Shown in pieces: positions 26,499 through 34,567 of a stretch of 64,000 nucleotides of DNA. Made by a program: the position numbers and the translations under genes. Within the stretch, counting starts at the first letter, position 1. Each line of letters opens with the position of its first letter. Origin of the DNA: Lobosporangium transversale (taxonomy: Eukaryota > Mortierellomycota > Mortierellomycetes > Mortierellales > Mortierellaceae); NCBI RefSeq assembly GCF_002105155.1, contig NW_019028999.1:496001-560000 (forward strand), read 5' to 3'. The notes below the pieces were generated by a model, which was not told where the DNA came from, did no database searches, and saw only the letters and a list, made by a program, of their open reading frames with translations.

Positions 26499-29314
26499 CA
26501 ATTGACAGTACATTTGGATCCGTTGTTTTTAGCTTATGTGTCACATCCTTCGATACCAAAGATTCTTCCCTCAACCGTCAAGACTGTATTAAACCCGTTT
26601 GTTGGATCAGAGGTCAACTTGCATGCGGTTTTTACCTATACACCGTTATCGATTGCTTGTCGTTTGGGACATGTTGAGGTAGCTAAATTGCTTATCCACA
26701 ATGGTGCTAACCTGGATGCTCAGGACGAGGATGGGGAGTCATGCTTGATCATTGCTGCAAAGAATGGTCATGTTGAATGCGTGAAGCTACTAATTACTGG
26801 GAACGGGTATGCGAAAGGCGCTAATCTTGAGCTCAGGGAACGTTATTACGGATGGACAGCTCTTCACCTCGCAGGTTCGTAATGCATTTTCAAACAGGAA
26901 AGCAGAAAATGCTTTCTTTTTTTTTTTTTTTTTTTCGTGCCTATTGTTATAAGGAAACTAGCTTTGATACTGAAGTTTGATAATTGAAACTTGTAGCAAT
27001 CGAGAATCATCCTGAGGTTATTAAGGTTTTGCTTGCAGCTGGAGCCAATCCCAATGTTTACGATTTTTCATCATGGAGCCCACATGAGTATGCTGTCTTT
27101 GCTGCCAATAATGCTTGTGCTGCTCTTCTTCGTCCTGTGACTCTCAGTCTGGACGAGCGTCTACGCCTGCAAAAGCAGAACGCCGGAAGTGACGCAGCGC
27201 ATGCAAGCCCCATCTCGGTTTCGCAGCCCATGCTCTCTAGTCCTTCTGCAGGGACCTCTGGATCAAGCTCACCAAACTCACAGAAACTCGAAAAAGGCGA
27301 GTCACCGCCAACGTCAGCTGGAAAGAGCAGCAGCAAATCATTGAAGACAGCTCAGCGCGTATACGGACATAAGTATCTAGAAGATGAATCACTAATTGTT
27401 GTTACGCTGGGCTCTAATGACGCTCGCAGTACCGTGGAGCCTGTTGAGCTCTATATAAGCGGTGACAGTCATTCGTTTTTGACAGCCAGTACAGCATTTT
27501 CATTGGAAATTACGGCGGAGAATGCTACAGCAGGCGAGAAAGCCATCATTGACTTGCCTCTTAAGGATTCAAGTTATCACGATCAGATCGTTTTTTATGC
27601 ACCAAAGCCTGAAGACACTATCCTTAACTTTTCAGTTTACCCCACCTTTGGACCTTCAAGCAACAAGCTGGTCGGACGCGGCACAGCAATTCTCTCCAGC
27701 TTGGATAATCTTCGCAAAGACGTCAGGAACCAGCATCCAGAGATGACTTCCCTCCAAGGGATGAATATGACAGTACCTATCTTTGGTGTGGAAAAGATGA
27801 ATATTATTGGACGTGTTAGAGTTGAATTTACAGTTGTGCGTCCTTTCAAACATGAGAACCTCAAAGTCGGAAGCAAGCACACATATTGGAAGAGCTTGAC
27901 TACAACAGTAAGTGATACTCGAATGTATTACAGAATATAAAGCTTTTTATTTTTTTTTATTTTTTTATTTTTTATTTTTTATGTATATTGTTGACATCTA
28001 ATCCGACAAAAATACCCAATCCCGAATAGGTCATTGGTCATCGCGGCCTTGGAATGAACCGTAAGGTATCAAATCTTCAGCTCGGCGAGAATACCCTGCT
28101 TTCTTTTGTTACAGCCGCTTCTCTTGGGGCAGAATATGTGGAGTTTGGTATGTCCCCGCTCGTCGTGGTATTGTATGTGTGTCATTCGCCAGTCGATGAG
28201 GGCTATGGAATTGCTGACCTGAAAAGGTTTATTCCTTGTAATAGATGTTCAGATGACGAAGGATATGGTGCCTGTTTTATACCATGACTGGACAGTAACC
28301 GAGACTGGATTGGATATTCCTGTTAGCTCCATAACGGTAGAACAGTTCCAGAATCTCTCCAAATCAAAATCACGTAGTCATGGTAACAGTTCTCAGCCAG
28401 TCTCACCCAGACCTGGTGCCCCGAAACAAGCTACTCCTGCTTCACCATCTTCAGTTAGTCTAACTGTAGTGAAACCTGAGCTTGTGAGGAGGTCCACTCA
28501 TGATTCTGAATCAGACCCCCATAAGGAAAACCAACCGCGACTTGTTCGATCTAACAGTTTGGGCGCAATGGCCAAGATGAGGGCTCAGACAGCAGTATCT
28601 GAGCCTGCTAAGCCCGGAGCCAAGATGAAGGGCAATGGTCTGGGAACAATTCAGGCGCCATTCGCTACATTGAAAGATACGTTTGAGGTAGGATATCTAT
28701 TAACATTGACGATGACAAATGCAGGATTTATTCATAATTTGATATGTACAGTTCGAGCTCATGACTTTACACATTTTCATGTTTAGACTGTTCCAACGAA
28801 TATTGGATTCAATATCGAAGTCAAGTATCCCATGCTGGACGAAGCAGAGGATGCCAACATCCCTTTATATGCTTTTGAGATTAACCGATTTGTGGATCGG
28901 ATTTTAAAAGAGGTCTACGACCACGACCAAACACATCCCAACCGCAACATCATCTTTTCATCCTTTCACCCTGATATTTGTCTTTTGCTCAATATGAAAC
29001 AGCCAAATTATCCAGTGTTCTTTCTGACGGATGGAGGTACAAGCGTAGTAGCCGATCGTAGATGCAATTCTATTCAAGGAGCTGTCCGTTTCGCAACATC
29101 AATTGACCTGTTGGGAATTGTTACCAACAGTGCACCAATCATTGAAGCACCCAACCTGGTCAAGGCTATTAAAGAAACAGGTTTGCTGGTGTTCACTTAT
29201 GGAATAGATAACAATGATGTGGAGAACGCTAAACTTCAACGACGACATGGAGTTGATGCTGTAATTGTCGACTGCGTCTTGGCCGTGCGAAAGGGCCTTC
29301 AGCAAACAGAATAG
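23939..29314 (+). CDS. GDE1: SPX-ankyrin glycerophosphodiester phosphodiesterase
   Basis: GDE1 cleaves glycerophosphocholine and similar diesters in the cytosol to recover choline and phosphate. Ten exons join in frame to 1249 codons: 23939-23971, 24209-24320, 24455-24890, 25442-25799, 25896-26442, 26611-26874, 26997-27907, 28030-28147, 28245-28687 and 28787-29314. The SPX domain opens with MKFGK...IPEWSRHYVSYKGLKK and includes FHLDREVEKVNNFF. Ankyrin repeats follow (RRPLHYAAMHG, TPLIYAVSRGQAEVL, TPLSIACRLGHVEVAKLLI). The C-terminal catalytic domain has VIGHRGLGMN, GENT and EYVEFDVQMTKDMVPVLYHD. The SPX domain suggests inositol-pyrophosphate (phosphate-status) control. Length matches yeast GDE1 (about 1220 residues). 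Intron 5 (26443-26610) contains a T tract and stays open in frame. Confidence 0.94.
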
Positions 29315-29416: not shown

Positions 29417-30445
29417 CGGCAGCTGTCTTAATAATGAACGTTAGATTTAGAGTATAACAATAAAGCAGTAAAACTAGAGATGGGAAGAATTTTGTCTGAA
29501 TTTGCCTCTTCCTTTATTAGTACTAGAAAGAGAAGCGCCAGGCCTATGAAGGAGGAAAGCAAGTTCTTAACGAAATAGGCTACATTTGTCTGAAGAAGGG
29601 CTGATCTTTACCTCATTACAAGAGAGGTGTATCTGTCCTAATTCAGAAGTAACAAACTGGTGCCGTGTTTCATCCAGGTGTATTCCTCGTCAATGACCTT
29701 TTAGATTAAAATTGTATAATAGTATTATGTTACATACATCCAAGTAAGAAAAGACAAGCTTATGACGACACGCAGTTAAGCCCTGGTCTTGATGGCATTA
29801 ATGGAATGAATGACTCATGAATAAGCGAAAGTAGGTAATTTCTAACTCGTTATATTTATTATTCATTTTTGTGCACACAACCATTGCAGTGATGCATTAG
29901 TTTCCCTAAATTCTTAAGCAAGACTTTGTATTTGGTACAGCTTGCCATACAATTATCGTAATGTTGCAAGATAAAGAGGTATCCTAAACTTACATAATCT
30001 ATTAAATAGGCTCACGCTTGAAAGCTTGAAGCCTATGAATCTTTCTACAACCATGCCTATCATTAAAGAGCTCACAAGAGAAGGGAGAACGACCACTTAA
30101 CCATGTGGTGATAGATGAATGATAGTAGTGATCTTTTCCTGTACAGCTCGGCAAGACTTGATTTGTCACATCATTTACTTGCTCGTCTTCTTGCGTTCCC
30201 TTGATGTATCTGGGTTGGTAAACACTGCTAGTAGAGTTTGTTGGGCCTGTTGAAACCAGAGGGAGCCACAGCAACATATCATACCCAAGGTGATACAAAT
30301 ATCTCTGTTGGAGTGAGTGGTGAACTGTGTGTGGTTCAGATGTAGTGGACATAAACGGCGAAAGAATGCATCGAAAGGATGTGAGCGGTTATGAGAGCAA
30401 GGAAGAAGGGGTTGCTATGCCTGTTCAAGTCTTTGGCAAGAGAGT
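29315..30445. other. Intergenic before the Fanzor/PIN locus
   Basis: About 1.1 kb. A 29-bp A tract at about 29383-29411 may be a retroposon tail, but the diagnostic CCTTGTTATC motif is absent. A 116-codon minus-strand frame (30002-30352) has no recognisable features. Nothing else is supported. Confidence 0.4.
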
Positions 30446-30806
30446 ATGAATAGCAGTTGTGATCACGAGTTGATTTCGGTGAGTCCGCATAACAATGGTA
30501 TAGTTTCTAGACCCTATCTTCCACGTACAGCATGGCATTATTGTTGTTTTCAGACCTGGCACCAATCATGCGAGGTATTTCTCTTTCTGAGGGTTCCTTG
30601 TGTTAAACAGCCAGACAGAAAGCTTAGAAGAGATACAGACACAACGGTGAAAAAAATGTATGTGAGCAAACAGTTGCTGTGTTTATTTGTTGTCTGCACA
30701 TGCCTTCTTTCATCGCGGGCTTTTTTTTTATTGTTTCGCAAATCTTGTTTCCTTTTTTGTTCGTCAATCACTGTGTGCAGCTGAAGCATCTCTTTAGTTT
30801 CTGTAC

Positions 30807-32462
30807 ATGTATAAACACATTTTACATCGTGGCGTCTTTTTTTGTTCAAAACACAAGCGTTTTCCATTGGTGCTTCCAAACAAACTTTATTTTGGCGGCC
30901 ACTCCACAATCCAGGACAAGGATCAGCTGGCAACAGGCCTTAACTCTGTCTTCGATGTCTGTCTGTGTGCATATGAAGCGGACCCATGTATAGGGTGCCA
31001 TAATGAGGAGAATGATAGGATCGTGATGTCCCAAGACTCTGATTTTTTTGCGTACGAATGAGTCTGCTTCCTAGTGGGACCCCTTCCGCGCCGTAGACGG
31101 AAGTTTGGGGTTTACGATGTAGACAACGTTATCCAAGCACTAAGACTGCCATCACACGCGCATCTGGTGTTATTCTGTGCCATCGCAGGCAATGACTACT
31201 CAAGGAACCTCGAGACGTTAGGCCCGGTTAATAATCTTCGATTAATTCGAAACGTTGCGTGGAACGAGAACTACAATAAAATGCTTCGGGACTACCTAAG
31301 GGAAGCTAGTAAGGTGTTGGGAAGGAACGCAGCCTCTGAAGAAGGCCGTTTCAGAGTAGCTCTCCGCATTTTTACTTCCGACCATCAAACGTCGGCCCAA
31401 GCGCTACCATTGAACAATGAGTTCGATAACTTCAAGCAGCGTCTACTCAATGGAAAGGATCTTCGTCATAGAATGACTCAGCAAAGGCGAGCGCAGCGTC
31501 GCAGAACGTAAGGAAGCTCAAGCTATAGTTTTGACCTTGAAACCAAACGTCCCCAATACTAATCGTTAGTCCTTTTCTTGGATAATGTAGAGACACACCA
31601 TCATTCTATATAGTGAAAGGGTCACATAGGAACCAGTTCCGGCCCATCTTTTCTGACAAGGCGAGCATATTGAATGGGCGCACAGTTGATATCAGTAACT
31701 GCCATCAGCACGATAGGCCGGGCCTTAAGCATCCACCACGTCGGAAAAAGGCAAAAAAGAAGCAACAGAAAAAACAAAAGCGGAAGCACAAAGGCAAGAA
31801 GCCCCACAGGGCTAAAAAAGAAGGTGCACCAATTAGGGACTTGAAGGATGCTACGAAGGTTGATCACAGCTACAGCAGTAAGCACCTTATCAAGGCCTTA
31901 ACAATTGGGTCCCTTAAGGCCTCCATGGCAAGGAAAGGCGGACTGGACGCAGATGAAAGGGATAGTATTGCAAGCCAGATCCGAGGGGCTGTTGTTGCCC
32001 TCAACCGACTACGCCGCTATGCACACTGAGCGATTGCCTTGGACATTGAGAGGATCATGCGGTTACCAGGGGCAGCAAGGTCGAGGAAAAGGCACTGGAC
32101 GAGGTCTTTGATAGCAATGATTATTCCTTCCGTCTCGCCACCCTTCTTTTAAGTGGTCAAGGTGGCCCCAATTCAGCTTACGCGAGGGCAAAAAAACAAG
32201 GAAAGGCGGTAGAAACGCCCCATTATCTCCTCGCTTATGAACATTTCAAGGCCACCACTGAACTTTCCCCAATAAAGGAAATAGACATCACATTGGGGGA
32301 CGCGCAAGGCTTTGATCCCAAAAAGATCTCATTTCCAAGAGCGTCAGAGCTACTAATGGGCCAAGTACAGACATCATTAAGGCAGCACTACAGGAACGCA
32401 ATGGTGTAGCTTGTGTAAGGTATTTTCATGCATATTCTGCAATCAGATGCTCTTTATTCAGA

Positions 32463-32494
<32 letters not shown>

Positions 32495-33982
32495 CTAGTT
32501 TGATGTCGAGAAGACAAACGAAGATATGAGCGACATTGAGTTTTTTTTTGCGGGAGAACAAAAAAGTGAAAAAATACTCAGACTTTCCTACGCTCTCCTG
32601 GTCACCCGGGTATGTGTATCTGTCTGAACACGCCCTAGTTGACATCCTCTGGGCGAACGAAGATATCAAGCAGCTACTGGAGCGTATTCTGCCTCTCGAC
32701 AATCCTTCCAAGACTGCAATGTTTGAGTGTGTACAGGGAACAAAAGGGTTTTGATTCAGGCTCTCTTTTGTGACATTGGAGGCGATCGCATGGTTCTTGG
32801 ATATCAAGACAAAGTATCCCTGCAGTCACAGGACAAAGATCTAACTCGGTTCAAACTCAAAGGAACGATTTCTACCAACGGTCTAGTTCTGAATCTACTT
32901 GCCTATGACACAACCCAGACGAAGAGACAGCAGCAGTCTGACATAGATGAAGAAGACCCCAGCCAAGAACTGGAGCTTTCTCATGGATTTTTCAACACGA
33001 CGTGTTCAAAGGCAGCCGGTGAAGACCTGACAGATGAAGACTACGCAAACATAAACTGGAAGAGGAGCTCCAAACTGCTTGAAAACGTTGAGCTCACATT
33101 CAACAAACCAGGGCGGTGCCCATCCGCAAACACCACAACTATCGTCGGATGCGATCCTGGTATTGTTAATGCCCTTATGTTCTCCTCCCTGGATCCTCAC
33201 AACCCTAACTTGCGGCAAACGGTAAAGGTGAGAAGCAGGTTCTTGTACTTCCCCGCCCTCCGCTTCAATCACCTGTTGAACAAAAGGAAGCGTGAAAAAG
33301 GAATGATTGAGGTTGAGAACGTCATCCCTGTGTTTGGAAGGGATACGTACAATGAGTACTTTCAATGGATGAACGAGGAGTCTTAGACACAGATAGGATC
33401 AAAGAATTTGGATGTGCTTCAAGAATTCTACGAGTCCAGATGGCACCTGAAAAAAAAATGGGACCTACGAAAGGCTCAACGAGCTACGTTCGACTACGCG
33501 GTACAGCGAGTGTTGAAGATGCTCGGGGAAAAAAGGAGTGCTTGTCGTCGGCCTAGGGTCCTTTGAAAGTAGTAAAGGAGTTCCCAGCAAGCACACTGCT
33601 ATAACGAGACACCTTGTAACACAGGTATGGCTTTTTTTAAAAAAGTAAGAAAAGCTGGAAAGCCAAAGAACCCTTGCTAATAAACGACTGCCATTTGAAA
33701 CGCTTAGGTCAAAGCACGAGGACACTTCGCTGTAGGAGCGCACGAATTTTACACCAGCGCCCGCTGTCCCCGACCCCGACCCCTCTGCGATAGCTTTTTA
33801 GAGACGGTGTACCTCGCTCTAAATATTGCCGGGCATGTAAGGTATTCTTCGACCGTGACGCAGTAGGGGCGGAAAACATCGCAAGAATCGGCCTTGCTCA
33901 AATTGAGAGGCAAGAGAGGCTTGCAAAGTACAAGCCCACGGAAGAGTCGCCTGCTCCGGCTGTAAAGCGCGCACGACGCTAG
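30807..33982 (+). pseudogene. Decayed PIN/XPG-like nuclease plus Fanzor (TnpB-like) gene
   Basis: The first part (to 31511) resembles the XPG/FEN family: FDVCLCAYEADPCIG, NDRIVMSQDSDFFAYE, HLVLFCAIAGNDYSRNL. A lysine-rich linker follows (31740-31830). The region from 32755 looks like Fanzor, the eukaryotic RNA-guided relative of TnpB. It has RuvC-I with catalytic Asp in IVGCDPGIVNAL (Asp at 33153), a RuvC-II-like VLVVGLGSF (33535), the zinc-ribbon halves EFYTSARCPR and YCRACKVF, and RuvC-III FDRDAVGAENIA (33838). A clean GT-AG intron (33625-33707) lies between the RuvC-II-like and zinc segments. The frame is broken by TGA at 31058, a shift near 32750, TAG at 33384, a shift in the A run near 33530 and a shift near 33800. 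It ends at TAG 33982. The 5' end is not defined. One fused gene or two neighbours cannot be settled here; collinear frames favour fusion. Confidence 0.68.
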
Positions 33983-34567
33983 ACACAAGTATTTGGGTGC
34001 CGGCACACCCACAAAAAATTTGTAAGTTCTGTTTATTTTCGTCTCCTGTATCCTCTCTAATCTTTTGCCCCTGAATTTCTGGACTAACTTTAAAAACCGT
34101 ACAGATCAACAGATACCGGAACAACAATCTAGTCGATCATAATGGCATGTACCTTGACGGTGCTCAGTGCCTTGGGGGAACTTGAAAAATAAAATTACTT
34201 TTTTGACAGTTCTGTTGCCATGGTGCACTTTGTCCAATAATAAATGAAAATGGAGCCCATTATTTTATTTGCCACTGGAATGTTGTATGGAACAGTGGCG
34301 ATGCACTCAATGCTTGGGACGATGTGCCGCAGCCGAAGCATTGAGGGTCTAGCCTCGATTTTAATATTCCATCAATGGTTAGATTTATCAGGACGACAGA
34401 TCTTAATTGTAATTCTCAAGGAGGGCTCTTGCCAATGTTGTGAATATAAAAGAGTACTTTCCCTAACTTGGGTAAAAAAGAAAAGTTTGAAAGTGAACTT
34501 CATCCTTTTCAAGAAGAACTCCAGCCCAAGAAGTCCAATATTTTGAAATCACTGAAGATTTGAAAGA
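33983..34567. other. Intergenic between Fanzor relic and orphan gene
   Basis: AT-rich. A plus-strand frame (34244-34546) has no supporting motif. This stretch should hold the promoter of the gene starting at 34568. Confidence 0.4.

Follow-up and report, generated by a model that had tools for sequence, protein, structure and literature searches.

In the available part of their report, Bao and Jurka (2013) describe Fanzor1 elements of Rhizopus, Phycomyces and Mucor that have MuDr-like inverted repeats and are flanked by 9-bp target-site duplications (PMC3627910). According to the accessible text of a second report, Fanzor, TnpB and Cas12a make both strand cuts with a single RuvC core (PMC11423790). 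Here we analysed a 64,000-nucleotide stretch of the Lobosporangium transversale contig NW_019028999.1 (positions 496,001 to 560,000, forward strand; the window), in which an earlier note, made from the sequence alone, had placed an XPG/FEN-like nuclease region joined to a Fanzor region. We estimate at roughly 95% the probability that a copy of a fungal mobile element, dead and shortened by an internal deletion, lies at this locus, and that the only gene of the element codes for a protein with two nucleases. The region delimited in that note (30807-33982) is real, but the true unit is larger, extending from about 30146 to about 34115.

Comparison with other copies by blastn showed window 30146-34115 (+) to be one copy, now decayed, of a dispersed repeat, for which the 42.7 Mb genome was surveyed and twenty stretches were extracted for copy comparison. 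With a 219-residue RuvC-I piece as query, this genome yielded at least 153 matches (E<=1e-3); matches covering at least 200 of the 219 residues at 87% identity or more were found at 26 places, window included. The motifs in the window are not due to chance. Complete copies of this family (family A) run from ACTATCCCTTAAACCG to GATCAACAGATA over about 5.7 kb and comprise about 2 kb without a recognised gene, followed by one gene. The gene model consists of exons of 1037, 814, 1125 and 270 nt separated by GT..AG introns, giving 1081 codons plus stop: exon 1 encodes an XPG/FEN-type N-terminal nuclease of about 315 residues, exon 2 a Lys/Arg-rich linker and a helical part, and exons 3 and 4 a Fanzor1 RuvC nuclease with zinc ribbon. 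In copies L009 and L012 exons 1-3 splice to one frame that stays open for 955 and 984 codons, respectively, until the first stop after a frameshift.

The N-terminal half is, by profile and fold, a member of the FEN/EXO1/XPG superfamily that lies outside the Pfam families XPG_I and XPG_I_2. A profile of the XPG part of relatives matched FEN-1, Rad2, FEN1 and EXO1 in the PDB (E 2.4e-5 for 1a76), and the superfamily fold was matched over residues 2-315. The acidic motifs could be aligned to 1a76, with the metal-binding acids complete in 5 of 7 sequences. In the window the XPG/FEN-like motifs are located as the earlier note had them (EADPCIG at 30975-30995, SQDSDFFAY from 31029, AIAGNDYS at about 31179), as is the RuvC-I motif GCDPG (33147-33161), and YCRAC and FDRDAVGAENIA both occur in the 33794-33982 frame.

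For the second half, a RuvC/zinc-ribbon profile of the relatives ranked the Fanzor SpuFz1 (E 1.8e-4) and the TnpB-like L79 (E 2.3e-3) as the top two of 177,635 PDB sequences, and the Fanzor effector fold was recovered. As a single-sequence PDB query, the RuvC exon returned chance matches only, and the window pieces alone produced only sub-threshold matches in Pfam and NCBIfam (zinc-ribbon piece: PF07282, E 0.063, 13.9 of 26.3 bits, below the cut-off). Besides GCDPG in the window, G[CIM]D[PS]G was found in 14 of 20 scanned proteins, 13 with DPG and P0008 with DSG, and was unmatched in the remaining 6. An alternative catalytic Glu, which precedes the zinc finger by six residues (E-x6-C), is present in B_L034, P0003, P0005, P0006, P0010, P0012 and P0017; the other 13 of the 20 did not match, and those inspected are truncated or altered there. 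The Fanzor1 pattern given in the accessible part of the 2013 report, D-X(125,275)-[TS][TS]-X-X-C4 zinc finger-X(5,50)-RD (PMC3627910), is likewise recognisable, with D-to-E gaps of 128 (P0017, a shortened model), 171, 172, 172, 184 and 204, followed by TS-x2-C and DRD. The first zinc knuckle of the fused Fanzors is C-x4-C. At the site of the WED-domain TDG motif, P0003, P0011, P0013, P0014 and P0015 carry TDG and P0005 carries CNG, while TNG is found in the window family, P0001, P0004, P0006, P0008, P0010, P0012, P0016 and P0017.

Protein searches, in which candidates were picked by shared short words and fewer than 8,000 were scored per search, recovered fused relatives in other fungi. With the L012 product as query three proteins were obtained, the best being a 998-residue protein of Mortierella sp. 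GBA43 with 47% identity over 99% of the query. A profile search gave six proteins, fused in Benniella (1160 residues) and Podila verticillata (1260 residues) and shorter in L. transversale and Benniella. The Fanzor half as sole query detected 12 proteins, including a complete fusion from Mortierella alpina (1186 residues, P0010), P0001, P0003 and shorter or partial pieces. P0001, P0004, P0005 and P0010 each hold both parts in one predicted protein. The halves are thus not always separate genes, nor is a RuvC/zinc-ribbon match absent at 33.1-33.9 kb, the two outcomes that the earlier note had held to count against its own proposal. Within the reach of these searches, the named homologues belong to Lobosporangium, Mortierella, Benniella, Podila and Modicella; because the four genera looked up in the taxonomy (Benniella, Podila, Modicella and Lobosporangium) are all Mortierellaceae, the suggested "fungal Fanzor lineage" is a fitting description. 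Six full-length proteins share 28-41% identity in the XPG part and 31-52% in the Fanzor part, with active sites mostly retained. Trees built from each half of these six proteins concur on the pairing of family B with Benniella and on the split that unites family A with GBA43; the two halves show largely matching inheritance. Viruses were also considered as carriers and rejected: 74 pattern matches in viral contigs included no relative by tblastn.

Family B, a second family in the L. transversale genome, has the same module order and is 30% identical to family A in the XPG part and 40% in the Fanzor part. At 15 places a match to its XPG exon has 98% identity or more and spans at least 322 of 341 residues, in no case with a stop. 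Two more decayed lineages show this order too, L037 through to the zinc ribbon and L038 as far as the linker, where the extracted stretch stops. Genome-wide, 69 places match the PF07282 zinc ribbon, and at 40 of them an XPG match lies no more than 5.5 kb upstream on the same strand, compared to one downstream and one on the opposite strand in the controls. Near full-length XPG matches are followed by a PF07282 match in 22 of 31 cases. Seven of the other nine have a downstream same-strand RuvC-I match (C14, C66, C51 twice, C55, C72 and C101); for those at C44:263594 and on C56, none was found downstream among the matches listed.

The window copy itself is certainly dead. It has lost the left ~150 bp with the 5' terminus (the matches of copies L016, L020 and L021 begin at 30129) and retains the 3' terminus ...GATCAACAGATA at 34115. 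An internal deletion of ~1.46 kb at junction 30910/30911, also present in copy L010, joins the 5' non-coding part to mid exon 1 and has removed ~147 N-terminal codons of the gene. Its parts, all but the outer limits and non-coding ends following the gene model, are:

30146..34115, + strand: family A element remnant (blastn against other copies; ends judged by eye in 11 two-ended copies)
30146..30910, + strand: 5' non-coding part of the element (comparison with other copies)
30911..31507, + strand: exon 1 remnant, the last ~200 codons of the XPG/FEN-like nuclease with EADPCIG, SQDSDFFAY and AIAGNDYS (also motifs, and the relatives' profile and fold matches to FEN1/EXO1/Rad2)
31508..31590, + strand: predicted intron 1 (GTAAGG..TAG), separating the XPG and Fanzor modules
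31591..32403, + strand: exon 2, with the conserved block FYIA-GS-RNQFRP, the Lys/Arg-rich linker and the helical N-terminal part of the Fanzor half
32404..32498, + strand: predicted intron 2, with a long poly-T run
32499..33624, + strand: exon 3, with a WED-like part (TNG motif), RuvC-I (GCDPG), the IES-IP block and the GLGSF strand
33625..33707, + strand: predicted intron 3
33708..33982, + strand: exon 4, with the alternative catalytic Glu (E-x6-C), the TS-x2-C zinc ribbon and RuvC-III (DRD) (also PF07282 in relatives)
33983..34115, + strand: 3' non-coding end (folded as 33983-34117, no significant fold)

The earlier note had rightly taken this copy to be broken, but its count of two stops and about three frameshifts does not hold: three stop codons are present, at 31059 (exon 1), 32027 (exon 2) and 33384 (exon 3), and the frameshifts number more than three when counted against L012, which itself carries one. 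They include one near 32087 in exon 2, several in exon 3 and one, together with a 6-nt insertion, in exon 4. GT..AG introns, as predicted from the sequence, rather than damage appear to account for the breaks at 31.5-31.6, 32.4-32.5 and 33.6-33.7 kb. At 777 of 834 comparable codons the window and L012 have the same translation.

The two modules appear to belong to one protein. Intron 1 is in phase 2 in both family A and family B, and the block following it is conserved in family A, P0001, P0005 and P0010 and contains no Met; it is therefore probably translated from exon 1. We reject separate neighbouring genes in view of the intron phase, this Met-free junction and the fused relatives. Retention of intron 1 would end translation at once inside the donor site (window 31508-31510), and a free XPG protein could therefore arise by alternative splicing, with the Fanzor half starting downstream, as also suggested by P0003 and P0007, whose predicted starts lie close to the junction or beyond it. 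However, the Met-free block, the shared intron phase and the exons fused in predicted proteins of four other species make two separate proteins very improbable. An old accidental fusion, carried passively and yielding no working protein today, would agree with the lesions in every copy read, the window copy among them. This, too, is very unlikely in view of the 15 near-identical family B copies with an open XPG exon, of the identities among the six full-length proteins with their mostly retained active sites, and of ratios of non-synonymous to synonymous substitution rates (dN/dS, w) below 1 in both halves. These ratios come from a second run restricted to L025, L021 and L020, from which deleted or unrelated stretches were excluded. 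L009 compared with L020 and L021 gave w 0.45 and 0.48 for the XPG part (p 0.013 and 0.023) and 0.36 and 0.49 for the Fanzor part (p 2.4e-4 and 0.011), and in the L025 comparison the Fanzor part was constrained as well (w 0.35, p 3.4e-11). Some purifying selection has acted on both halves.

Several observations weigh against our overall interpretation. None of 16 aligned family A copies, the window included, is open throughout, and none of four family B copies (L027, L034, L035, L036) is intact; P0001 and P0004 stop short of the zinc ribbon. Asn replaces one Asp of the D-x-D pair of the XPG site in P0001 and in L012. The XPG piece of the window lies below the Pfam cut-off (XPG_I_2, E 0.056, 13.4 of 24.2 bits), P0005 reaches 13.0 of 24.9 bits for XPG_I, and the other six scanned proteins have no listed XPG match; since the scanned copies score below these thresholds, the domain is readily overlooked. 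The XPG and Fanzor trees place P0010 and P0005 differently (supports 71 and 95). An upstream XPG match is lacking at 29 of the 69 PF07282 places; in L039, the one place among them read for this point, the start of the Fanzor half is lost too. The XPG part of L025 (109 codons) showed no significant constraint (w 0.59, p 0.085), and the first dN/dS run gave values near or above 1 for several pairs, some of them closely similar (e.g. L012 0.88 and 0.80, L011 Fanzor 1.14, L010 XPG 1.09). In that run the L010 and L025 alignments spanned deleted or unrelated sequence, with ratios near or above 1 also for the L025 XPG part, and we read these values as reflecting very similar or damaged copies. Modelled inter-domain placement is unreliable (predicted template modelling score 0.51; predicted local distance difference test score of the linker mostly <50). 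Finally, a guide RNA would be expected in the element 3' end, as in known Fanzors, and the earlier note had proposed a search for a conserved non-coding 3' RNA. On neither strand did the family A and family B 3' ends fold better than shuffled sequences (z 0.55 and -0.93 for family A, 33983-34117; -0.58 and 0.20 for family B).

Four zinc-ribbon matches (C106:394247, C62:36027, C44:236578 and C45:412207) outscore the family A and family B matches, lack an upstream XPG match and are possibly unfused Fanzors. L039 (C117:743900-747900) derives from family B by deletion; other sequence stands in place of its XPG exon, linker and first Fanzor part, with frames resembling the antisense of the family A 5' non-coding sequence. 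Family B elements also carry, upstream of the gene, a ~550-bp antisense piece that shares 86-87% identity with the RuvC-I region of family A (window 32692-33239), located at 7788-8334 in L027 and 4862-5409 in L024 and present in the aligned parts of L034-L036, which could give rise to an antisense RNA against family A. An inverted pair of family A copies occupies L028 2784-7932 (C44, about 228.8-233.9 kb).

With respect to mobility, AAACCGT occurs in the same orientation at both family A ends; no inverted repeat was found in L013, and visual comparison of 11 copies showed no target-site duplication. L012 and L017 have the same right flank, sharing a 3.2 kb duplicated stretch, and are uninformative for insertion sites. 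Family B ends in imperfect inverted repeats of ~14 bp (TAG[CT]CCGT[TC]CCATT), identified by eye, with no clear-cut target-site duplication. End-specific searches gave at least 40 genome places for each family A end, and short copies with both ends are too small for the gene, e.g. C39:64134-64709. The family B 5' end is common to at least 41 genome places, some only about 92% identical, which suggests non-autonomous relatives. Inspection by eye of open frames of at least 70 codons on both strands of L009, L012, L013 and L022 recognised no transposase, although remote transposases could escape, and for three open frames in the 5' part of L012 and L013 no Pfam match passed its cut-off.

As the two nuclease halves have stayed together over deep divergence, a common substrate is probable. 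The Fanzor half would be led by a guide RNA, which presumably derives from the 3' end of the element, to DNA that matches the flank of the element, where the R-loop of this half would expose single-strand/double-strand junctions of the kind recognised by XPG-family nucleases. The tethered flap nuclease could then cut the R-loop flank or trim the resulting flap, leaving a complete or resected break, and repair from the element-bearing copy would keep or copy the element despite the lack of a recognised transposase. In the available part of one study, cutting of the 3' flank of R-loops by purified XPG is recounted, and R-loop asymmetry is related to Cas12a cutting (PMC7286691); the R-loop may accordingly be seen as a fitting substrate for both halves. 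This mechanism is tentative and falls somewhat short of even odds; identity and mechanism judged together as a single compromise come out slightly on the favourable side. Alternatively, the flap nuclease might be a mobility enzyme processing excision or replication flaps or junctions at the element ends, with the Fanzor half only protecting or restoring the element and the fusion serving co-expression. The lack of a recognised transposase, the family A ends, in which AAACCGT but neither inverted repeat nor target-site duplication was seen, and the many places sharing each end would suit this idea. Yet no FEN/XPG nuclease is known to select element ends, the inverted repeats of family B would suit a transposase acting in trans, and the short two-ended copies have no room for the gene, so we regard it as unlikely. 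An equally doubtful role is that of an RNA-processing or binding module, in which the FEN/XPG domain would trim the guide RNA or hold single-stranded DNA or RNA and leave the target uncut.

The window also contains, upstream of the element, a glycerophosphodiester phosphodiesterase (GDPD) gene with at least two open frames (28223-29314, +) and, at 36073-38178 (+), a 701-codon open frame without Pfam match at E<=0.01.

A natural fusion of Fanzor with a FEN/XPG nuclease was not found in the open-licence literature on Fanzor or TnpB together with XPG, flap endonuclease or Mortierella. The "candidate Fanzor flap endonuclease homologs" of large DNA viruses are worded, in the available part of that source, in a way that does not describe an XPG-Fanzor fusion (PMC11071296). 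The XPG-Fanzor architecture thus appears new, both modules coming from known superfamilies. It is conceivable that these proteins form a line of RNA-guided effectors in which each chain has two unrelated nuclease active sites and a Fanzor R-loop brings the built-in XPG/FEN-type nuclease to the junction of that same R-loop, so that the guide RNA would direct a structure-specific cut in addition to the RuvC cut; we would give this rather less than even chances. Conserved in several genera, the natural fusion with a nuclease of a class reported to cut the edges of R-loops makes RNA-guided cutting by two nucleases open to testing, and it is relevant to the question of how Fanzor elements survive when they encode no transposase.

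Compared to the Fanzor1 proteins of Parasitella parasitica, Spizellomyces punctatus and Guillardia theta (PpFz, SpuFz and GtFz), the proteins described here carry an extra FEN/XPG nuclease of ~315 residues and a basic linker in front. They further differ in the C-x4-C spacing of the first zinc knuckle and, in many members, in TNG instead of TDG, and their guide RNA is only presumed. Like the elements of Rhizopus, Phycomyces and Mucor, as far as the accessible part of that report describes them, they are Fanzor1 elements of early-diverging fungi that encode no transposase of that superfamily (PMC3627910). In contrast to them, neither MuDr-like inverted repeats nor 9-bp duplications were seen in family A, and a flap-nuclease domain is not mentioned for those elements in the same part of the report (PMC3627910). 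With EXO1, FEN1 and XPG (Rad2) the N-terminal half shares the fold and the active-site acids, whereas identity in structural alignments is only 12-20% and the domain is here part of a mobile-element protein.
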